A stretch of DNA of 22,626 bases from a virus. Positions 6,099-22,226 of the stretch are shown here, in pieces. The notes below the pieces were generated by a model, which was not told the origin of the DNA, did not search any database, and worked only from the letters and a program-made list of their open reading frames with translations. Every line of letters begins with the position of its first letter. Positions within the stretch are counted from its first letter, which is position 1. The translations under genes and the position numbers were made by a program. The stretch lies in IMG/VR virus record IMGVR_UViG_3300036850_000023, positions 1-22,626 of that record. One strand, written 5' to 3'.

Positions 6099-6359
6099 TT
6101 ACCCTCCGAACGGATGCCAAAGCCGCCAATCGCGCAGCATACACCGCCCGTTACGCGGCTTCCAGCGGCCCACCTCTTGCCCATTCCGATCCTGATCGAC
6201 AGCGACGCACTCGGTGCCGTTCCTCGCCACCATGAGGCTCGATGCCATGTAGGACGAGATGTAAACCCCTCCGACGACCCCCGCTATAAAGAGTCCCGCA
6301 CCGAGCAGAAGAATGCGACCTATATCTCTTGCTCCGGCATATAAAGCCCAATCGCTCAT
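6099..6359 (-). CDS. Single-pass membrane protein with small Cys-paired domain
   Basis: The gene encodes 86 residues. Its ATG overlaps the stop of the tailspike-like gene (ATGA, 6359-6356), so it is translated together with it. Residues 14-45 are strongly hydrophobic (ILLLGAGLFIAGVVGGVYIS), giving one membrane segment. The remaining 40 residues are polar, basic and Trp-containing with two cysteines (51 and 73), and they end in WHPFGG. With the N-terminus inside, the Cys-containing domain would be in the periplasm. I do not recognise the family. Coupled synthesis with a leader-bearing tailspike-like protein suggests a membrane partner in its export or assembly, or an envelope effector such as a superinfection-exclusion factor. 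Both ideas are inference. Confidence 0.72.
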   Translation of the reverse strand: MSDWALYAGARDIGRILLLGAGLFIAGVVGGVYISSYMASSLMVARNGTECVAVDQDRNGQEVGRWKPRNGRCMLRDWRLWHPFGG

Positions 6360-8350
6360 CGGATCTGATACCTCCCGAACAGATCAACTCTCATATCCGT
6401 CGTACTCGCCGGGAAACTGGCAACCCCCATGAGGCCGCTCGCGGCTCCCGAGACAAAGGTTGGGAAGGTCCAGTCTACCGTTCCAGCCGTTCCCGCGATA
6501 TGACACATAGCTTGCACCGCACCCGCCAATGACACTTTGCTGAACAGGCTCGGAGTACAGCCCGAGTGCATGGTTGCCGGGTTGCTCGGGCTTGGTAATG
6601 CGGTACTCAGCGTAAACGTGCCCGCCGCCGTTGTGTAAGCGTTGGTATCAAATTCGTAAGACAGCTTGTATTCGGCATGGTCCCCGCGCAACCACCATCG
6701 GCCAGCCGATACGATGTTTGCCGGTACAAAGTCGCCCAGCGTCCCGAAGGACGGGGTAATCGTCCCCATCGTGAACGGGACATCCGGGAGGTCATAAAAC
6801 CCATCCGTTGTCGTGTAGCACCATCCCCCGGTCGTGGCGCCACACCCCAGCGAAACCGGCCATCCACCAAACTTATTACCGGTGATCCAGTTTCCAGCTG
6901 AATCCAGGGTTGTCTCCAAGACGACGCCTGTCTGTCCAGCGTTGGTAGTCACAGAATTGTTCTGGAAAACTAGGTTCCCGCCAGTTTGCTTAACTACCGC
7001 GATCGTTCTATTTGTGCCTCCTGTTGCAAAGTTGACATTCCGTATCCGCGCAGTGCCGCTTGTCACCAATACACTCGCAACGTCTACGCCGGGGCTTGAT
7101 ATACTGCCCCCTTGGAGATTTAAAACGCCGCCGCTGACACCTATAGCCGGCACCGCTGTTATATGATTCGGTCCAACGTTGGAGAGATTGAGCAGACCCC
7201 CCTGGACATCAATCAGGTGAGGATACGCCGGAGTAGGCCCCGCCGAACCGCTGAAGTTGCTGATCTCAAGATGATCGGTGTCTTCGATAATTAGGCTGCC
7301 GTGGTCGAGGCTGACATTCGACCACTCTCCGACCAACGCGAATGGCGCCAACGCCTCATTCAAAAACTGCGAGGAAACTGTGCGGATCGCCGTGTCATGA
7401 CAGAAGATATTGGTAAACAACGAACCGTCCTGCCGACCGATATTGATGCAGTCAGTATCGCCGTCCGCCATAATCGTCATCAGGCCGAGATGCGTTCCGT
7501 TCATGCCGAATGTCCAGAAATGGAACCCGGAGATCATCGACTGATCGGCTACGCCATCAATCCAGAGTCCTTTATTGAGCGCCGAGATTTCCAGGTTGTA
7601 GATTTGATAAATCTGATTACCAAACCCATTGGGGCTGTTCACAGTCCCGACAGCATCGCCCGCAATCCCGTCCCAGGCCCGCTCGATCCGTAGATCATTA
7701 AACGTATTCCGGCCGCCCGACCCCGCCGCCGTGCCAAGCATCAAGATGGCCGGCGGATACTTGCATCCCGGCCCACCCGTAATGCTACATCCTGTAGTAA
7801 CATTTACAAATCCCGCCCGTCCGCCGGATGGCGTGGGCGGCTGGTCAAAAGTGATATACAAATCGCGAATGGTTTCTCCAACCCCATAGTGCATGGCGGT
7901 AGTTCCAAGAACGAACACGCCACGAGCGGTTGGACTGAATGTATCTCGCACCCGAATACCTGTTAAGCCGCGCCCATCTCCGGCGAAAACCTGTGATCTG
8001 TCCAGCAGGGTTTCGTTCGTGACGTAATAAAGTCCTGCTTGAAGGCGCACCTCGGGGGCCGCACCATTGACAATGACCGCAGCCGCAAGGTTGATCGCCG
8101 TCGTGCAATCGTGCGCGATCGGCGGGGTAAGCGCGATTTCCGCCTCGGTCGTCTGACCGCCACATAGCGCATCGTAATCGACGGGGGCCACGATGTTGCC
8201 CGAACCGCCCAGCGCCTTGTTCAGCTCAGCCGCCGGCAGTGGGCAATTCGCCTCGAATGGATAGGTATTGGTTGCAGGGCAGACCGCACGGGCCGGCGAT
8301 GCCAGGACCAGCAACGCAGCGGCGAGGATCGACACGGCGACATTTCTCAT
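6356..8350 (-). CDS. Exported tailspike-like parallel beta-helix protein with signal peptide
   Basis: The gene encodes 664 residues. An AGGAG site lies 10 bases before the ATG. Residues 1-22 are a classic Sec signal peptide (MRNVAVSILAAALLVLAS, then PARA, cleavage before Val23). Residues about 95-500 have the pectate-lyase-like, right-handed beta-helix pattern of phage tailspikes: repeated short strands with Asn, Gly and Val, such as RSQVFAGDGRGLTGIRV, TFNDLRIERAWDGI and ISGFHFWTFG. A C-terminal beta-domain follows. It has 12 cysteines that fall in close pairs (24/36, 63/82, then GCSITGGPGC, DCINIG to FC, GCGATTGGWC, and GC to MC). The family role is binding or degrading surface polysaccharide. 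The leader and the paired cysteines argue for a periplasmic or extracellular fold, which is unusual for a tailspike. It is the first gene after the divergent intergenic region. Confidence 0.82.
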   Translation of the reverse strand: MRNVAVSILAAALLVLASPARAVCPATNTYPFEANCPLPAAELNKALGGSGNIVAPVDYDALCGGQTTEAEIALTPPIAHDCTTAINLAAAVIVNGAAPEVRLQAGLYYVTNETLLDRSQVFAGDGRGLTGIRVRDTFSPTARGVFVLGTTAMHYGVGETIRDLYITFDQPPTPSGGRAGFVNVTTGCSITGGPGCKYPPAILMLGTAAGSGGRNTFNDLRIERAWDGIAGDAVGTVNSPNGFGNQIYQIYNLEISALNKGLWIDGVADQSMISGFHFWTFGMNGTHLGLMTIMADGDTDCINIGRQDGSLFTNIFCHDTAIRTVSSQFLNEALAPFALVGEWSNVSLDHGSLIIEDTDHLEISNFSGSAGPTPAYPHLIDVQGGLLNLSNVGPNHITAVPAIGVSGGVLNLQGGSISSPGVDVASVLVTSGTARIRNVNFATGGTNRTIAVVKQTGGNLVFQNNSVTTNAGQTGVVLETTLDSAGNWITGNKFGGWPVSLGCGATTGGWCYTTTDGFYDLPDVPFTMGTITPSFGTLGDFVPANIVSAGRWWLRGDHAEYKLSYEFDTNAYTTAAGTFTLSTALPSPSNPATMHSGCTPSLFSKVSLAGAVQAMCHIAGTAGTVDWTFPTFVSGAASGLMGVASFPASTTDMRVDLFGRYQIR

Positions 8351-12169: not shown

Positions 12170-13363
12170 CTAAGCCGTCGCGCGGCCGTAATCAACGACC
12201 TTCATCCCGGCGAGATGCCCGAACGCCGGCGGCAGCGTCGCCACAGCCTCGGGATGCACGTCCTCAACCTCATCCGCCATCACACCAATATGCTTCATCT
12301 CGCCAGGATCATCCTTGTAGCGGTAAGAGTAGACCATCAACCCGTTATCAAGCTTCCCGACCTTGCGAATATCGTCCTTCATCCGCCGATCGGAGCCTCC
12401 GAACAATCCGAACAGCGACGACAACACCCCGACACCCTGCCCAATCTGACTGAGTGGGGAAGCGGACGGCGGAGCAAAATACGGCTGCGTCAATTGCGAG
12501 TTGCCGCCATAATTGCCGCTCACCGCGCCGAGGTACTGATTGAGTTTCTGGTAAGGCAACTCCTGCCCAAAATTCCACCGGGCAACGGCATCGTTAATCG
12601 CCTGCTGTTGCCATTGTTGATGAGCGCCACCCGCAGCGAGTTGCCGATCATAAGGCGCATAGGCTGCCGCATCCGTCGCTGGAGCCAATGCGAGCGCTCG
12701 CAGCATATCGTTCGTGTCACCGGCCCACGTCGTTTGCAGCCCCGTCCCAGCCGCCTGTCGTCTCTGTCCACTTTGCTGAGCCGCCGCGATCTGGTTCTGC
12801 TCTTCCTGCTGCTGTTGAGCGAACAGCAACGGCGCCAGCGCCGACGTAGCACCCGCCGCCGTTGCGCGTGCTGCCTCCGGACTCGACAGTGTACCACCAC
12901 TGATGAATTTTGATTGTATGCCCGGCACCACCCGCGATATCACGCTCTGGCTTAACGCATCGGTATAAGGATTTCCCGCGCCCCCAAGCCGCTCGCCGCT
13001 CATATATGATTTTAACGCCTGCCCTTCCGGGCTTGCATCAGATGCCAATGAGCCGAACGTCGCGTATGCCGGATTATATTTGAACCAGTCGCCACGGAGA
13101 AGCCCGGCACTCGTATTGCTAGCAATTCCCGGTAGAGCGTCTTGCTCCGGCCGCATCATTATATCTGTGGCAGCTAACTGTGCCCAATTTGGCCCCTGTA
13201 CCGTTGAGCCTAGCGCATATTGCGGCGTGTACCCGTGATATAGGTTCGACGCGCTGGAGAAAACGTCCTTCAGATATTCCTGCTGCGGCCCCCACGGTTC
13301 GGTATTCGCAGTAGATGTAGTAGTGCCGGACGGACCTCCGCCACCTTTGCCGCCGCCTGGCAT
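12170..13363 (-). CDS. Virion protein with C-terminal S74 intramolecular chaperone
   Basis: The gene encodes 397 residues behind an AAGGA site. The N-terminal part (EPWGPQQEYLKDVFSSASNLY, split by short linkers, then Gln/Ala-rich helices at about 180-260) resembles podovirus internal or DNA-transfer proteins. Residues 324-397 match the peptidase S74 (endosialidase-type) domain: SDRRMKDDIRKV, then YSYRYKDD, then HIGVMADEVEDVHPEAV. Ser324 and Lys329 have the five-residue spacing of the catalytic Ser-Lys pair that releases the chaperone after trimer folding. These domains usually sit at the end of tailspikes and fibres, whereas here it ends a protein between a GNAT-like and a lysozyme-domain gene. 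It may be a trimeric tail component or an unusual ejection protein. Confidence 0.85.
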   Translation of the reverse strand: MPGGGKGGGGPSGTTTSTANTEPWGPQQEYLKDVFSSASNLYHGYTPQYALGSTVQGPNWAQLAATDIMMRPEQDALPGIASNTSAGLLRGDWFKYNPAYATFGSLASDASPEGQALKSYMSGERLGGAGNPYTDALSQSVISRVVPGIQSKFISGGTLSSPEAARATAAGATSALAPLLFAQQQQEEQNQIAAAQQSGQRRQAAGTGLQTTWAGDTNDMLRALALAPATDAAAYAPYDRQLAAGGAHQQWQQQAINDAVARWNFGQELPYQKLNQYLGAVSGNYGGNSQLTQPYFAPPSASPLSQIGQGVGVLSSLFGLFGGSDRRMKDDIRKVGKLDNGLMVYSYRYKDDPGEMKHIGVMADEVEDVHPEAVATLPPAFGHLAGMKVVDYGRATA

Positions 13364-15510: not shown

Positions 15511-16836
15511 CTATCGTTCTCCTGTGTATGCCGGCGCGAGTGCGCCAGGCGCGGCCAACCCCGCCAGCCCGTACTTGCGGATGATGTCGATCAGCTTGTC
15601 GTCGAACACGACGTAGTTGCTCGTCTGCGTCGGCCCCACTAGCTTTTCAGGATCTAGCGCCCGCATTCCCGCTAGTTTCTCGCCAACATTCGGTAGAACT
15701 GCCTTGTTTCCGCGCGCGAGTGCGTCGGCTGATTGCTGATAATTCTCTATCAACTGCTTAAGCAGCGTATACGCATCAACTTCCCATCGGCGTGATTGTC
15801 CCGAAGCATTGAGCGCATCCAATCCAGCCCGTTGCTGCGCAGTCAATTCACCTGTGTATGTCGCCGGTCCCATTGGCGTGCGGCTGCTCTGATCAAGATA
15901 CCGGCTGCCGGGGATGCCCGCTTCCCAAAGACGCGCGGATACATCCGCGTCAGTCATGGTTAGCGGCTCGCCTCCTCGATTGAATAAATCACTTGCAGTA
16001 TACCGATTACGTCCTGCCTGTCTGATAAAATGACCAAGAGGCATGCCACTATTACCAATATAAGAAGCGGCACCCCCAGCATTCTCAAGTGCCGATCGTA
16101 CCGCCTCGCTTTGTTGAACGAGCGGCTTGTCCCAATCCAAGAACTGCTCCGGCTCGGCGTTGATCCGCGCCTCGTACATGCGACCAGGCTTCATCTTCTC
16201 GGCCATCAAACGATCATATTCAGCCACAAGCTCATTGCCTCGCGGATCAGTGAACTCGCGGAGCGTTCCCGGCTTGCGCAACGGGTCCATTTGACGTGCC
16301 AATTCAGACATCCGCGCATTCGCCGCCGCAATCGCCGCCATGTCTTTGACCTGATCACGATAGACCCGCGCTACGTCCTCACTCTCGGCCAGATACAACC
16401 CATGCCCGTAAGCCTGCGCCCCCTCGCCGGTCCCGATCTTGCTCATGTCGAACCGCTCGAAGTCGTAGGGCGAGCCGTGAAAGGCCCGAATAGCCCCGCG
16501 CGTGTCCGCCAGAACGCCGGGGACCGCTCCCAGCGCCTCACGGCCCGCCGTCATCGCTCCCCGCGCCACAGGCGCTCCCAGCGCGCCCGCACCCAGCACT
16601 CCGAACGTCATCTGCCCCAACCCCGGCAGATACTCGCCCCGGCCCATTGCCTGCGCGCCCGCCTGAATGTCCGGTATCCCTGTCATCCCATATAGCGCCG
16701 CCCCGGCTTCCTCCGCCGTGCCCCGCGGTATCGGGATAATCCGATTGTCGTAGAGCGATGCCAGCGCCCTAGCCAGCACCCCGTCCTGCGCCAGCGCGGC
16801 AGGGAACGCCCCAGCGGGCTCGTCCCAGATCCCCAT
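15511..16836 (-). CDS. ADP-ribosyltransferase-domain virion-region protein (ART-PolyVal-like)
   Basis: The gene encodes 441 residues, starting 3 bases after the gp10-like gene. Residues about 40-110 are Gly/Ala-rich and possibly membrane-active. An ADP-ribosyltransferase-like domain follows: RAFHGSPYDFERFDMSKIG with His120, AQAYGHGLYLAESEDVARVY with Tyr148, a GIPGSRYLDQSSRT strand at 308-320, and NYVVFDDKLIDIIRKYG with Asp412/413. This His-Tyr-(Asp/Glu) order and wording match the ART domains of phage polyvalent proteins, which are packaged and injected to modify host targets. A segment of about 75 residues separates the last two motifs. There are no cysteines. The likely role is modification of a host protein or nucleic acid upon entry. 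The target is unknown, and activity would need the acidic residue to be catalytic. Confidence 0.82.
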   Translation of the reverse strand: MGIWDEPAGAFPAALAQDGVLARALASLYDNRIIPIPRGTAEEAGAALYGMTGIPDIQAGAQAMGRGEYLPGLGQMTFGVLGAGALGAPVARGAMTAGREALGAVPGVLADTRGAIRAFHGSPYDFERFDMSKIGTGEGAQAYGHGLYLAESEDVARVYRDQVKDMAAIAAANARMSELARQMDPLRKPGTLREFTDPRGNELVAEYDRLMAEKMKPGRMYEARINAEPEQFLDWDKPLVQQSEAVRSALENAGGAASYIGNSGMPLGHFIRQAGRNRYTASDLFNRGGEPLTMTDADVSARLWEAGIPGSRYLDQSSRTPMGPATYTGELTAQQRAGLDALNASGQSRRWEVDAYTLLKQLIENYQQSADALARGNKAVLPNVGEKLAGMRALDPEKLVGPTQTSNYVVFDDKLIDIIRKYGLAGLAAPGALAPAYTGER

Positions 16837-16839
16837 TGT

Positions 16840-18318
16840 TCAGCGCGAGCCCTGCGGAACCACGTCTAGCTCAATCCCCGAAATATTCGACCAGGTTGTC
16901 GCATCGGCAGGCACGGTAATCCGACCACGCACCAAGCGCCCCGAACGGCGCACAGGGCACATTCCCATCGCGTTTAGCGCTACAGCAGGACTAAACGAAA
17001 CAGCATCCTGAAGCCGCTCGCGGTGACCAATGGCAACCGTTGGAGCCGACGACAGTCCATCAACCATCGGGCGGGAATTCCTTATGAAAACCCGTCTTCC
17101 GGGGACCGGCTGCAGCTCCTGCGTATCCACCGTGGCGGCGAGCGCTCCGCCGGTAAAAAAGTTCATCTTATGCGTGGCATCGAACAGCGCTATCTGTAAT
17201 TTGCTACCAAGCGTCGCATCAACCGATAACAACCGGAAGATCGTCTCGCATGTCAAAAGCACTAACGAGAAGCGGCCAAGCTCCCAGCTATAGCAAAGCA
17301 GTCGATCAGGATTGCCAGAACTCGCAGTAGACGGATACGCCCACCAGATCAACTTATTCAACGCATCGGCAGCACCTACCACACGCTTGATATGCGCCAT
17401 GTTGACATCGCCAACTTGGTTCCCGTCCCCCAATAGGAACTTATCTACCTTACCGGCACCAATTGGCTGACTGCTTCCCCCATCAAACGCATATATTCCG
17501 TCTTGCCCCCAATAGTACGCGATGCCGCCCTGTACGACGATCGAGCTAGGTGCCGGCGTCCCGCGCGCATTCTCGACCGGTAAGAACGAGAACACATCCG
17601 GCGGCCCCGCATACATCATGCGACGCAAGCCGTATTCCATGAACACTACCGCATCCGCATTGATCAAATCCGGGGCAAAGCCTTGTACGTCGCCGCCGCC
17701 GCCAAGCAGATCAACAGCACCGGATTGCACCTGTGCCGCCTCATCAGTACCAAGCACCGGCCAATTTTCTGGATCACCGGCCGCGCTCCACCACACGCGC
17801 TGCGGCATCTCCCCATTTACATCATCGTAGGTATTGCCCAAAGCAAGAAACGCATTCTTCACAACCGCTATGTATTTAGCGCGAGGGACTGCGTGTGCCC
17901 CACTAAGAAAGCTGAATACGCTACTCTCCGGCGACAATATATAATGCTGCGGTATTGCCGTATAATTTGTAGTAATTACCTGTCCGTTAAAATATACAAA
18001 GTTCCAAACATTAACGCCGGTATCGTAAAACCCAGGCGCTACGGATTTGTTAACCCAATCCGTCCCGCCAGCTTTAAGCAGATACAGATCGCTATTCGAT
18101 CCAGCAAACATGAACACATTGCCGAATTTGTCGTGGACCCCAAAGCCGCCCCGGCAACGACTATTGAGCGCATTGTAGACCGCCACCGGCGCATTAATAC
18201 CGCCATAACTGGCCAGGGTGCGCGGGAACACGTTTTGGATAACAGCCGATCCACTCGCCGGCTGATCCGGCTGATCCGGCATGAATTCGGCAACAGGAAG
18301 AACGAGAGGAGCAGCCAT
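16840..18318 (-). CDS. P22 gp10-like tail accessory / DNA stabilization protein
   Basis: The gene encodes 492 residues, and the ATG shares a base with the previous stop (TAATG at 18320-18316). The chain shows repeated beta-propeller-type blades (VFMFAGSNSDLYLLKAGG, FVYFNGQVITTN, QRVWWSAAGDPENWPV, IAYYWGQDGIYAFDGG) and ends in a beta domain (GRLVRGRITVP). The WWSAAGDPENWP and YYWGQDGIYAFDG wording is characteristic of the gp10-type hub proteins that follow the gp4-type adaptor and plug the tail tube in P22-like podoviruses. The gene upstream fits that adaptor. The product is expected to bind the adaptor ring at the portal vertex and keep packaged DNA in place. Confidence 0.85.
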   Translation of the reverse strand: MAAPLVLPVAEFMPDQPDQPASGSAVIQNVFPRTLASYGGINAPVAVYNALNSRCRGGFGVHDKFGNVFMFAGSNSDLYLLKAGGTDWVNKSVAPGFYDTGVNVWNFVYFNGQVITTNYTAIPQHYILSPESSVFSFLSGAHAVPRAKYIAVVKNAFLALGNTYDDVNGEMPQRVWWSAAGDPENWPVLGTDEAAQVQSGAVDLLGGGGDVQGFAPDLINADAVVFMEYGLRRMMYAGPPDVFSFLPVENARGTPAPSSIVVQGGIAYYWGQDGIYAFDGGSSQPIGAGKVDKFLLGDGNQVGDVNMAHIKRVVGAADALNKLIWWAYPSTASSGNPDRLLCYSWELGRFSLVLLTCETIFRLLSVDATLGSKLQIALFDATHKMNFFTGGALAATVDTQELQPVPGRRVFIRNSRPMVDGLSSAPTVAIGHRERLQDAVSFSPAVALNAMGMCPVRRSGRLVRGRITVPADATTWSNISGIELDVVPQGSR

Positions 18319-19064
18319 TAAAAATGAGTCGCTCGTACCCGTCTGGTCGATACGCGGCGCGTTGTCTCAGCCTTCAGGCTATAGAGATACCCTCGATCGC
18401 TCGGTAGCGCAGGATCGCCGTAAATCGCTATTTTCATGCGCCGCGCCAGATCATCGTCGTGTAACACCTCCTGCGCAAGTATGAGTTTCGCCTCAGTACG
18501 AATCAGGTCATATGCATAAGATGACCATACACCGGTTTCACCAGGGGCGAGAACCTCGGTTCCATCAAGCAAACTCTCATCTAGGATGAATACATGCGGC
18601 AGAATATCCAGGCGGCTCGACCGAATTGGATAGGCCCCATTCGGGATCGGGTGGAGGCGGATCGTCTGCCCCAGATACGCCCAATCTGTTGGCTGACCCC
18701 GCTCTGCCGGATTGGTCGCAATCTCCTCCATCCAGTCCCATGTCCGTTTCGTCAATGGCCACCGATTGCTGTTTATCAGCGCATGAAGGCTATAGATATA
18801 CGGCGAGGACGCTATGCGGGAATTATCCACCGACGTATAAAGTTCCTGATTTGCAACCGTCGTAAACAATGGCGTGGCGCTGTCGTAAATCTCGTTGAAA
18901 AAGAACTGCTCGCGTTCCCACTTCGCTATGGCAGACTGGATAGCGTTTTCAATGGGCGACAAAACAAGCCCGCTATCGCTAAGCGGTTCAAGCAAGTCCG
19001 TGCGGTTGCCGAGTTCGTCGGCAATGGTTTGCTGGAGGACCAAATATGTGACAGATACCGGCAT
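18318..19064 (-). CDS. Head-tail adaptor-like protein (gp4/tail tubular A-like)
   Basis: The gene encodes 248 residues, and its ATG directly follows the stop of the glycosyltransferase gene (TAGATG). The N-terminal helix pattern (LQQTIADELGNRTDLLEPL, then IENAIQSAIAKWEREQFFFN) and the end (YLYSLKAETTRRVSTRRVRA) recur in adaptor proteins that sit between portal and tail hub in podoviruses. The middle has DWMEE and the strand-rich RLHPIPNGAYPIRS. Adaptors of this type form a ring under the portal. The call is supported mainly by the neighbour that looks like gp10. No lytic motif is present, so the alternative is a general connector protein. Confidence 0.75.
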   Translation of the reverse strand: MPVSVTYLVLQQTIADELGNRTDLLEPLSDSGLVLSPIENAIQSAIAKWEREQFFFNEIYDSATPLFTTVANQELYTSVDNSRIASSPYIYSLHALINSNRWPLTKRTWDWMEEIATNPAERGQPTDWAYLGQTIRLHPIPNGAYPIRSSRLDILPHVFILDESLLDGTEVLAPGETGVWSSYAYDLIRTEAKLILAQEVLHDDDLARRMKIAIYGDPALPSDRGYLYSLKAETTRRVSTRRVRATHF

Positions 19065-19787
19065 CTATTCGGCGCCCTTTTGCATCAAGGCACGCTCAGC
19101 CAACCAGCGACCAGCGTGGGGGCTGTTGTTGCACCCCGGCATCGTCGGGACGCCGAGCGTGAAATGAATGCCGGCAGGCACCTTGCCAACGTCCGGACTT
19201 ATGCCTGACAGCCAATTCCATTCGATCGGCAGCGCCCCAATCTCATCATTGGTCAGCCAGTTGAACGCATGCAGCCATTGCCCGGCGAACTCGTTGACCA
19301 TGTACCCGGTTAGATTACCGTTCGAGGGGTGCCCACAGTTATAGAGGGTGAGGCTCGACCAGTTCTTTCGGCGATAGCGGCTTTGCACGATGCCACCCAT
19401 CTTACTCGTCTCAGCCGGATCGTGGTCATGCTTGACGCACATCACCGCGTATCGGTCATCGGCAAGCGCAAACAGCTTCGCGACATCATCGGTAAACAGG
19501 AAATCTCCATCACAGAACAACGCCCACCCGTCATACAGCGACAGCGCCGGTACCAGGAACCTGGTAAATGCAAACGCGGTGCTAAATGGTTTAAGGTCGC
19601 CTAGATCAACCATTTGACCCTCAACATGCCGCCATTCGCGGCGATACCACCCCGCGCGCCGCAGCGCCGCTTGGTCCAGCCTGACGATATGCAGCGGCTC
19701 CGAGGTATGGCGTAGCAGCGAGGCGCGGCAGACGTCGAACGCCTCGGCCTCGCGCTCGTCGTATCCAATGAAAATCGGTAACGTCAT
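19065..19787 (-). CDS. DxD glycosyltransferase (GT-A fold)
   Basis: The gene encodes 240 residues, overlapping the Ntn-hydrolase gene as ATGA (19787-19784), with AAGGA 9 bases before the ATG. The N-terminus IFIGYDEREAEAFDVCRAS is typical of nucleotide-sugar-binding Rossmann-like GT-A enzymes. The metal-binding DGD is at residues 93-95 within WALFCDGDFLF, followed by a predicted acceptor region (NWSSLTLYNCGH, residues 142-153) and WLSGI. The enzyme should transfer a sugar from an activated nucleotide donor in the cytoplasm, with phage DNA, a virion protein or a host glycan as possible acceptors. It may work with the TPR-glycosyltransferase of the same operon. The acceptor and donor cannot be told from sequence. 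Confidence 0.85.
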   Translation of the reverse strand: MTLPIFIGYDEREAEAFDVCRASLLRHTSEPLHIVRLDQAALRRAGWYRREWRHVEGQMVDLGDLKPFSTAFAFTRFLVPALSLYDGWALFCDGDFLFTDDVAKLFALADDRYAVMCVKHDHDPAETSKMGGIVQSRYRRKNWSSLTLYNCGHPSNGNLTGYMVNEFAGQWLHAFNWLTNDEIGALPIEWNWLSGISPDVGKVPAGIHFTLGVPTMPGCNNSPHAGRWLAERALMQKGAE

Positions 19788-20296
19788 GCTGCCGCGTCCT
19801 TTGGAATGGCCGCGCCGCCAGGCATCTTCGGCTCCAATCTTGAGCGAGGCAGCACGCCCGCATGGCTTAGCCGCTCCACCTGGATTTCACCGCCGCAATG
19901 CGCGCTATACCGGATCGCGATTTCAACCGCTTCCTCGGCCGATGCGCCCGCGGCCATTGCGCCAATCAGCATCGGGTGAGCTGACCCATCAGCATGGAAC
20001 GGCGCGCGGGATAAGCTGCGCCCAGTCTCATCCCATTCCCATACGAGACCATCGGGCATAACCACGATCGCGCTAAAACGAGCCTCGCCTACGATTGTTG
20101 GCCGCCAACCGCCGGCATTTATACCCTCGCGCCACAACTCCAGAAATTCATGGCATAGCGTTGTGTTGCCTGCCGCCCCGGCCAATGATCCATCCGGCCC
20201 GCGCGCGATCTTTGTGGTGAAGCCCTGGAGCGTCTCGCCCGCATAGCAGGCGGTATCGGCCGCCATTACCCCGTCACGATAGGCTAAAGCAGTCAC
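19784..20296 (-). CDS. Proteasome/HslV-like Ntn hydrolase
   Basis: The gene encodes 170 residues from a GTG at 20296. I chose this start because GTGA overlaps the methyltransferase stop (20296-20293), a GGGAGAGGCGAG site precedes it, and the chain then reads M-T-A-L-A-Y. Removal of the initiator leaves Thr2 as the N-terminal nucleophile, as in proteasome beta and HslV subunits. Asp14 in GVMAADTACYAG and Lys29 in FTTKIAR are at the spacing of the conserved Asp and Lys of HslV. AGAAGNTTLCHEFLELW and SAEEAVEIAIRYSAHCGGEI match the later HslV helices and strands. No ATPase partner (HslU, ClpX or similar) is in the window. Possible roles are prohead processing, cargo maturation or counter-defence. 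It could also hydrolyse a non-peptide substrate. Confidence 0.85.
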   Translation of the reverse strand: MTALAYRDGVMAADTACYAGETLQGFTTKIARGPDGSLAGAAGNTTLCHEFLELWREGINAGGWRPTIVGEARFSAIVVMPDGLVWEWDETGRSLSRAPFHADGSAHPMLIGAMAAGASAEEAVEIAIRYSAHCGGEIQVERLSHAGVLPRSRLEPKMPGGAAIPKDAAA

Positions 20297-20823
20297 CTCG
20301 CCTCTCCCACACACACGAAGTATCCGTTGCGGTCCTGAAACTCCTTGATCCGCCAACGTAGCGCCAGCTTAGGGAACCACCACTCGGCCGGCTCGACGAT
20401 CAGGTGTGTGTTGCGCCCGTCCGCCAGCGTCTTGCTCGCCGGCACCGTAGCCACGATCAGCAGCACTCCTTTGCGCGCGAGGTCGCGGATGTCGTCGAGC
20501 ACCGCGTACAGGCACTCGGGCTCGATATGCTCCAGCACGTCGCCGCAGACCACCAGGTCGGCCCGGTTCGGCCGTGCGTCCTTGCCCTCGATGGCCGGGT
20601 CATACTCGGCGCACAGATATATGGCGGGCCATCCGTCCGCAATCTTCAGCAGCGTATCCCGAAGCGTCCCGCGACCACAGCCATAGTCGAGTACAGACCG
20701 CGCCTCATACTGCCGCGCCAGCCGATGCACCTTACCCGCCCATTTGCCGCCCGAGGTGCCGTAGGCCGGATTGCTAACGTGCAGCGCGGCGTTCAACTCG
20801 CGGTACGGTTCAGTTATGAGCAT
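20293..20823 (-). CDS. Class I SAM-dependent methyltransferase
   Basis: The gene encodes 176 residues from the ATG at 20823, which shares one base with the stop of the preceding gene (TGATG). An open frame extends 16 codons upstream, but the overlapping start and an AGGAG upstream favour this ATG. Motif I is VLDYGCGRGTL (44-54), followed by AEYDPAIEGK (72-81) and ADLVVCGDVLEHIEP (88-102), which is a standard Rossmann SAM-binding set. No DPPY/NPPY or Cys-loop motif of DNA methyltransferases is present, so a small-molecule, glycan or protein substrate is more likely than DNA. Its place in an operon with two glycosyltransferases suggests methylation of a sugar or of a nucleotide-linked precursor. 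Confidence 0.82.
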   Translation of the reverse strand: MLITEPYRELNAALHVSNPAYGTSGGKWAGKVHRLARQYEARSVLDYGCGRGTLRDTLLKIADGWPAIYLCAEYDPAIEGKDARPNRADLVVCGDVLEHIEPECLYAVLDDIRDLARKGVLLIVATVPASKTLADGRNTHLIVEPAEWWFPKLALRWRIKEFQDRNGYFVCVGEAR

Positions 20824-22226
20824 CACAAGCGTTCCAACTCCTGCGCCACCCGCACGATCGGCCCAGACCAATCTCCGTCCGTCTCCTGACGGAACAGTCG
20901 CGCGCTACCATACCACGGAAGCCGCTCGCCCTTTAGCTGATACCGCCAGCTCGGGCGACTCGGCACTAGCGTCCAGACTGGAACGCCGATACTCCCGGCG
21001 AGATGGTGAACCGTCGTGCAAACCGTGATCACCAGATCAAGCGACGAGACAAACGACGCTGTGTGGTCGTAATCGAAACACTCAACCCATCCCGGATAAT
21101 GCGAAATACGAAGACCGGTGCGCTCCTCAAGCTCGCATACCTGCCGCGCCGCGTCCGGCTGGTTCTCCGCCTTGTCCGGCGTATATTGCAGCGAGAACCA
21201 TTGCGCGTCCGGCCGTGCCCGCAAGATCGGCTCAAGCATCTCAATTGGGATGCTGCGCAGGTCGGATCGCGTCCGCTTTGTGCCTCCCGTCCAACTGATG
21301 CCGATACGCGGCGAAAACCTTGCGCCAACAACAATCCCTGGCGTTTCTGCCTTCAGATATGCTCGCCCGTCTCCCCACTCGGCATCGGTGTTCCGAAAAT
21401 GCCCCGGCAAATCAGCCAGCGCCACCGCCGCCTGCGCGCCGCAATCCCGCAGCCACGGCAACTCGGTCAGATCCTTACGCGTTCCGTATACCTCGAATTC
21501 CGGGAACGACCGCGCGAACAGCTTGTCGAGGCGCGGATGGCAATCGAGGATCACCTTGCGGCAAACCTCCGCCATGTCCGCCAGGCACGAAGCGTAATAG
21601 ATTTCATCGCCCACGCCCTGATCGCCATAGACGATGACAGTCTGCCCCATCGCCCCCGTCCATTGCGGGATGTTCTCGCCGTAGTTCCGGTGCCGACGAT
21701 CGTGCGAAGCATATGTATGCCGCCAGCCTTCCCATCCCTCACGCCAGCGCCCCAATTCAAGGCACGCCATCCCACGTTGCGTCGCGGCCGCATGACATCC
21801 CGGATCTTCCTTGAGCGCCCAGTCGCACCACTCGATCGCCCGCTCCGGCTGCCCCTCGTTGACGTAGAGCCCCGCCATGTTTGACATAATGATGGCCCGC
21901 CGGCGTGGCTGCTGCTCGCAACTCAACGCCTTAGCCCAAATCCGCTCCGCCATATCATTCTGGCGCCCCGCCTTATACGAGCCGCCAAGGTTCAGCAGCG
22001 CCTCGGGGAATTGCCCGCCTCGTGATGCCCGCGCGTCGATCGCCGCCGACGTAACGACAGCCGCCAGCCCATGCATCCCACCAACATTGAAGCAGTTACC
22101 GAGCATGAAAAGTGCTTCGTCGTTGAAGAAGTCGCCGTTCAGGAATTCCGTGCATTTGCGCATCGCGGCGTCAATGTCGCCCTTGAGAACGAGCGCCTTC
22201 GCCTCATCGAGTAATGTCGGAACCAT
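20823..22226 (-). CDS. TPR protein with C-terminal GT9-like glycosyltransferase domain
   Basis: The gene encodes 467 residues. Residues 1-180 form TPR helices (MLGNCFNVGGMHGLA, LLNLGGSYKAGRQNDMAE, IMSNMAGLYVNEGQPERAIE, ATQRGMACLELGRWREGWE). Residues 195-460 match the glycosyltransferase part of TPR-GT9 proteins: VIVYGDQGVGDEIYYASCL, RIGISWTGGTKRTR, and DLVITVCTTVHHLAGSIG followed by PVWTLVPSRPSWRY and WYGSARLFRQ. The TPR half probably holds a protein or sugar acceptor and the C-terminal half transfers a sugar. The operon with a second glycosyltransferase, a methyltransferase and an Ntn hydrolase points to a dedicated modification system, acting on virion proteins, phage DNA or a host glycan. 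It starts 33 bases after the capsid-type gene with AAGAAGGG ahead. Confidence 0.88.
   Translation of the reverse strand: MVPTLLDEAKALVLKGDIDAAMRKCTEFLNGDFFNDEALFMLGNCFNVGGMHGLAAVVTSAAIDARASRGGQFPEALLNLGGSYKAGRQNDMAERIWAKALSCEQQPRRRAIIMSNMAGLYVNEGQPERAIEWCDWALKEDPGCHAAATQRGMACLELGRWREGWEGWRHTYASHDRRHRNYGENIPQWTGAMGQTVIVYGDQGVGDEIYYASCLADMAEVCRKVILDCHPRLDKLFARSFPEFEVYGTRKDLTELPWLRDCGAQAAVALADLPGHFRNTDAEWGDGRAYLKAETPGIVVGARFSPRIGISWTGGTKRTRSDLRSIPIEMLEPILRARPDAQWFSLQYTPDKAENQPDAARQVCELEERTGLRISHYPGWVECFDYDHTASFVSSLDLVITVCTTVHHLAGSIGVPVWTLVPSRPSWRYQLKGERLPWYGSARLFRQETDGDWSGPIVRVAQELERL

Follow-up and report, generated by a model that had tools for sequence, protein, structure and literature searches.

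A phage-encoded proteasome homologue of the PPH family, with a predicted N-terminal threonine nucleophile and a probable accessory role

The window analysed here is an entire IMG/VR record (IMGVR_UViG_3300036850_000023), 22,626 bases of a tailed phage from soil; contig L001, 100% identical to it over 9,444 bases, reaches further upstream, into the major capsid gene. A gene of 170 codons on the minus strand of the window (19784..20296) encodes a protein resembling HslV and the proteasome, which raises the question of whether the product is built to be an active hydrolase and what it does for the phage. The literature searched contained no report of enzymatic activity for any protein of this family (PPH) and no function for any viral proteasome homologue. 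The reading proposed here is that PPH is probably an accessory enzyme of the late operon, an ATPase-independent hydrolase with an N-terminal threonine and a non-essential late task. The window contributes a clean case with respect to start codon, catalytic triad and lack of an ATPase, and the isolated phage phiM5, which has a PPH homologue, permits a direct genetic test.

Family identity and fold

The gene extends from a GTG at 20296 to a stop at 19784, and the plus strand of the same interval contains many stops. The sole PHROG match of the protein is phrog_1040, "peptidase HslV family" (E 4.7e-26). It matches homologues of Brevundimonas phages at 38%, and homologues are found in phages of Brevundimonas, Caulobacter, Rhizobium, Bradyrhizobium, Sinorhizobium, Klebsiella and Pseudomonas, among others. 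Single-sequence queries of Pfam and NCBIfam returned nothing useful, and a phmmer search of PDB with the single sequence returned no match; profiles alone succeeded. A profile of 56 sequences matched HslV (2.1e-9), BPH (5e-8) and proteasome beta5 (2.5e-6) in PDB. An AlphaFold2 model of the monomer (mean pLDDT 89.8, pTM 0.82) was matched by Foldseek to proteasome beta subunits in PDB (E 8.6e-8, probability 1.00) and also to a Caulobacter phage "proteasome subunit beta". The initial annotation of the gene as an HslV/proteasome-like Ntn hydrolase is thus confirmed at the level of profiles and predicted structure, with probable placement in the PPH family.

In the model, residues 1-143 form a proteasome-beta core that lacks helix H2: a single helix (residues 45-56) followed by a loop stands where the proteasome and HslV have H1 and H2. 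The C-terminal tail of 25-30 residues is modelled with low confidence. Absence of H2 is a trait of PPH and RPC in the study that described phage PPH in 2021 (Fuchs, Alva & Lupas, PMC8665760). The published PPH proteins and the window protein have in common a core of ~140 residues, no propeptide, a Thr/Asp/Lys triad, no H2, a phage-encoded gene and no ATPase partner, whereas the window protein adds its low-confidence tail and lacks the equivalents of proteasome Asp166 and Ser169. The window gene is a further member of a known family, and in itself an ordinary one. HslV (ClpQ), the nearest solved structure by profile, shares the fold, the triad (Thr1/Asp17/Lys33) and a Met-Thr start with the window protein, which differs in its shorter core, in having no H2 and in having no HslU gene in the (partial) record. 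BPH (PDB 5OVS) is, like the window protein, a Group I homologue with no known unfoldase, but it is longer and has H1, H2 and an acidic pore loop. RPC, which has a C-terminal domain, is listed for proteobacteria only and not for phages (PMC8665760); the tail of the window protein is short. Long C-terminal extensions were nevertheless observed on the PPH proteins L004:3001-3915 (304 aa), L085:4016-4822 (268 aa) and L040:4706-5323 (205 aa), which resemble the described RPC type, yet come from viral records.

Start codon and exposure of the threonine

The reading frame begins VTALAYRDGVMAADTACYAGETLQGFTTKIARG, and its GTG overlaps the TGA stop of the upstream methyltransferase gene as GTGA (20293..20296, minus strand; CGAGGTGACT). 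The initial annotation held that this overlap fixes the start. The overlap is real, but it is insufficient on its own because the frame is open upstream of the GTG, with an in-frame TTG at 20356. What does fix the start at GTG is the combination of a Shine-Dalgarno-like GGAG 7 nt ahead of it (20304..20307, minus strand; GTGTGGGAGAGGCGAG-GTG), the position of the start throughout the family, and the presence of a different gene upstream of PPH in the nearest relative, L010. Among 86 PPH genes, a start codon (ATG, GTG or TTG) lies immediately 5′ of the Thr/Ser codon in 84 and ATA lies there in the other two; the residue that follows is Thr in 80 and Ser in six, and an in-frame stop is immediately adjacent upstream in 5/86. 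Translation from the TTG, which would leave Thr2 internal or behind a propeptide, is allowed by the open frame, but no Shine-Dalgarno motif precedes that codon, and this alternative can hardly be reconciled with the start sites of the relatives.

Methionine aminopeptidase is well established to remove Met ahead of Thr. The sequence supports the earlier claim that the start lies where loss of Met alone would expose Thr2; the exposure is a rule of the family, however, and not a peculiarity of the window's overlap, and HslV chains also start with Met-Thr.

In Brevundimonas phage Kabachok (L003:3001) and in L037:6001, the PPH frame seems to begin at an ATA that adjoins the codon of the conserved Thr and has a purine-rich, Shine-Dalgarno-like stretch upstream. 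The annotated start of the Kabachok gene is 27 nt downstream and cuts off the catalytic Thr. These two cases are either rare ATA starts or misannotations.

Catalytic and accessory residues

Residues of the window protein are numbered with Met as residue 1, and conservation was counted over 72 non-identical PPH sequences, relatives having been sought with patterns that excluded residues 2, 14 and 29. The presumed N-terminal nucleophile, Thr2 (codon 20291..20293, minus strand as for those that follow; Thr1 of the mature protein), is Thr in 67 and Ser in five. Asp14 (20255..20257), equivalent to proteasome Asp17, is Asp in 70 and Glu in two, and Lys29 (20210..20212), equivalent to proteasome Lys33, is Lys in 72/72. 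The triad that the initial annotation pointed out is therefore present as described and conserved as T/S, D/E and K in every sequence; had these residues varied, or the fold been other than that of an Ntn hydrolase, the assignment would have fallen, and neither was the case. Ratios of dN/dS between near PPH pairs, where defined, are 0.05-0.18, indicating purifying selection.

In proteasomes, Ser129, Asp166 and Ser169 surround Thr1. The family profile aligns them to residues 105, 131 and 134, which in the window protein are Ser, Ser and Cys. Ser105 (19982..19984; Ser in 52/72) is kept, whereas the equivalents of Asp166 and Ser169 are lost: codons 131-134 (19895..19906) read SAHC where many relatives have DxxS. 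These replacements imply that peptide hydrolysis by the window protein may be weak or its chemistry different. On the other hand, HslV likewise has no equivalent of Asp166 in the alignment, so that this loss alone need not mean inactivity. In the family as a whole, retention or loss of Ser105 mostly goes with that of Asp131, with loss in about a third of members. Asp131 is present in 44/69 aligned rows, of which 43 have Ser105, and the 25 rows lacking Asp131 have Ser105 in only six. The association is strong by a Fisher test (7e-11), and the losses require about seven changes on the tree, but a tree-aware independent-pair test has too few independent pairs, so the covariation remains a hint.

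Search for an ATPase partner

The initial annotation noted that no ATPase partner is nearby, and this holds beyond the window: no AAA_2 domain (Clp/HslU type) was found in the window (a partial record), L001 or L010, nor in 50 PPH-bearing phage records, the control genomes being positive in 14/14. Fuchs et al. similarly reported no co-occurring AAA+ partner for PPH (PMC8665760). An HslU supplied by the host is possible for the window protein. Helices H1 and H2 lie on the outer face, where HslU docks, and with H2 missing from the model, docking of host HslU would be unlikely.

Neighbourhood in the window and position in other phages

Four genes of the minus strand overlap tightly, PPH being the third. 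The run opens with a TPR-containing protein of 467 residues (20823..22226), overlapped at TGATG by the ATG of a methyltransferase gene (Methyltransf_23; 20293..20823), which overlaps PPH at GTGA; the stop of PPH overlaps the ATG of the next gene at ATGA (19784..19787). That next gene, of 240 codons (19065..19787), had been labelled a glycosyltransferase, a label that is not sustained by its assignment to PHROG 28018 (unknown function) and its lack of any Pfam match. Two head/tail-completion genes follow on the same strand (16840..19064), encoding proteins of 248 and 492 residues, the latter matching PHROG 3287, virion structural protein. When the 248-residue protein alone was used to look for relatives, only the overlapping contig was recovered.

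The published survey of the family reported no informative gene context (PMC8665760). Here, the site of PPH was found to differ between the window and its relatives. In L010 (about 53%), the order is portal, a 110-aa gene, PPH, scaffold and major capsid protein (MCP), and the pair of TPR-protein and methyltransferase genes is present as in the window with PPH elsewhere; a functional tie of PPH to this pair was accordingly rejected. PPH lies between a terminase-like gene and a DNA methyltransferase-like gene followed by portal in L047, between portal and a head morphogenesis gene in L025, and, in L027, between portal and a 110-aa gene that is itself preceded by terminase. In Sinorhizobium phage phiM5 (MF074189), the homologue (gene 03, annotated as "putative peptidase"; 37% identical over 132 residues) is found between terminase and portal, in contrast to the window copy between the methyltransferase and 240-aa genes. 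This isolated phage has a particle proteome, in which portal, scaffold and capsid are annotated as detected; PPH carries no such annotation. In L011, PPH belongs to a lysis cassette, flanked by an amidase gene and a spanin-like one, and phiCbK and EL have it among other genes, unrelated ones in the case of phiCbK. In tallies that count family matches rather than loci, from gene calls by a home-made caller, PPH neighbours are often head and packaging genes. In the 28 records where terminase could be matched usably, PPH is within 8.5 kb of terminase in 18, versus 11.0 expected (p 0.004), and within 3 kb in 10, versus 4.8 expected (p 0.0085).

The gene orders of L010, L047 and phiM5 suggested that PPH occupies the slot of a prohead protease, a proposal weakened by two further comparisons. 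Record L110 has portal (54%), scaffold (36%), MCP (about 60%) and the 248- and 492-aa tail genes (59% and 54%) of the L010/window type in one uninterrupted run, and no PPH was detected in it by HMM (positive control, 1.7e-49). A search with the L010 portal type yielded 80 loci (1.1 Mb), of which one, L010's own contig, bears PPH, these contigs being fragments, some with short flanks, so that PPH may sit elsewhere in some of the genomes. PPH is not a fixed part of the L010-type head module.

Tad2-like and Acb2/Tad1, both anti-defence families, are matched by single genes upstream of PPH in the loci of alignment A2, so accessory or anti-defence islands may house some PPH genes.

Predicted role

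In the mechanism that probably applies, host methionine aminopeptidase would strip Met1, leaving Thr2 as a free N-terminal nucleophile with no need of a propeptide. PPH, as a monomer or a small oligomer, would then work with no unfoldase of its own and may cut peptides or unfolded segments. Its task late in infection would be useful rather than essential, such as the clearance or trimming of proteins or an effect on a host protein, and would not be obligatory capsid maturation.

The location of the gene had been taken to suggest maturation of a phage product, an interpretation undercut by the displaced PPH of L010, the absence of PPH from L110 and the single bearer in 80 portal loci. More specifically, PPH could trim scaffold, portal or capsid protein in prohead assembly as a prohead protease does. 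The gene is set amid portal, scaffold, MCP or terminase genes in five phages (L010, L047, phiM5, L025, L027), and its significant proximity to terminase would fit an assembly role also, which counts against an accessory one; the prevalence of head and packaging genes among its neighbours points the same way. A head-maturation protease is nonetheless quite unlikely given that 79/80 loci with the same portal type show no PPH, that record L110 lacks it beside 54-60% identical portal, MCP and tail genes, that PPH resides in the lysis cassette of L011 and among unrelated genes in phiCbK, and that the phiM5 scaffold is itself in the particle. An obligatory role of PPH in maturation is improbable. 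Since the gene changes place within the late operon and relatives seldom have it beside the same head genes, looking for a substrate that PPH must mature is probably the wrong course. Its accessory distribution and wandering position are what would be expected of a moron that disables a host protein at a late stage of infection, and such a host-directed or counter-defence enzyme has a small but appreciable chance of being the correct description; the Tad2-like and Acb2/Tad1 neighbours favour it, but they are single cases among 105 proteins, and no defence system or target is known.

It is doubtful that PPH rings take the place of host HslV on HslU and redirect proteolysis, even though HslV chains are the nearest solved relatives and no phage-encoded ATPase was found, because the model lacks a helix of the docking face and Fuchs et al. 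found no AAA+ partner co-occurring with the family. Joint loss of Ser105 and Asp131 in many members raises instead the alternative of a pseudo-enzyme or of other chemistry, such as that of a small-molecule amidase or a connectase-like transpeptidase/ligase, connectase being another proteasome-like homologue that is a ligase (PMC8665760). This alternative is unlikely, since the invariance of Thr/Ser2, Asp/Glu14 and Lys29 argues against loss of catalysis and the tree-aware test is underpowered. A narrower version, confined to core-only PPH proteins that keep Thr/Asp/Lys and have wholly or partly lost the Ser129/Asp166 pair, would have these carry out specific ATPase-free protein processing or ligation late in infection, as a viral counterpart of connectase; it is about as improbable as the head-maturation protease. 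An accessory N-terminal-threonine hydrolase is therefore the preferred prediction.

Other features of the window and of L010

The TPR-protein and methyltransferase genes, which adjoin in L010 as in the window while PPH moves, are possibly a cassette for modification of the virion or of surface glycans. A 441-residue protein of the virion module (15511-16836, minus strand) has a weak match to ART-PolyVal (ADP-ribosyltransferase; E 6.7e-6, under the Pfam cut-off) and a 74% match over 50 residues in L010. A DNA-ejection-like protein (12170-13363, minus strand) ends in a Peptidase_S74 (endosialidase chaperone) domain, which is better known from tail fibres. In L010, the major capsid gene (6196-8147) is interrupted by an HNH-endonuclease orf (7107-7712), in the manner of an intron or an intein-like insertion.
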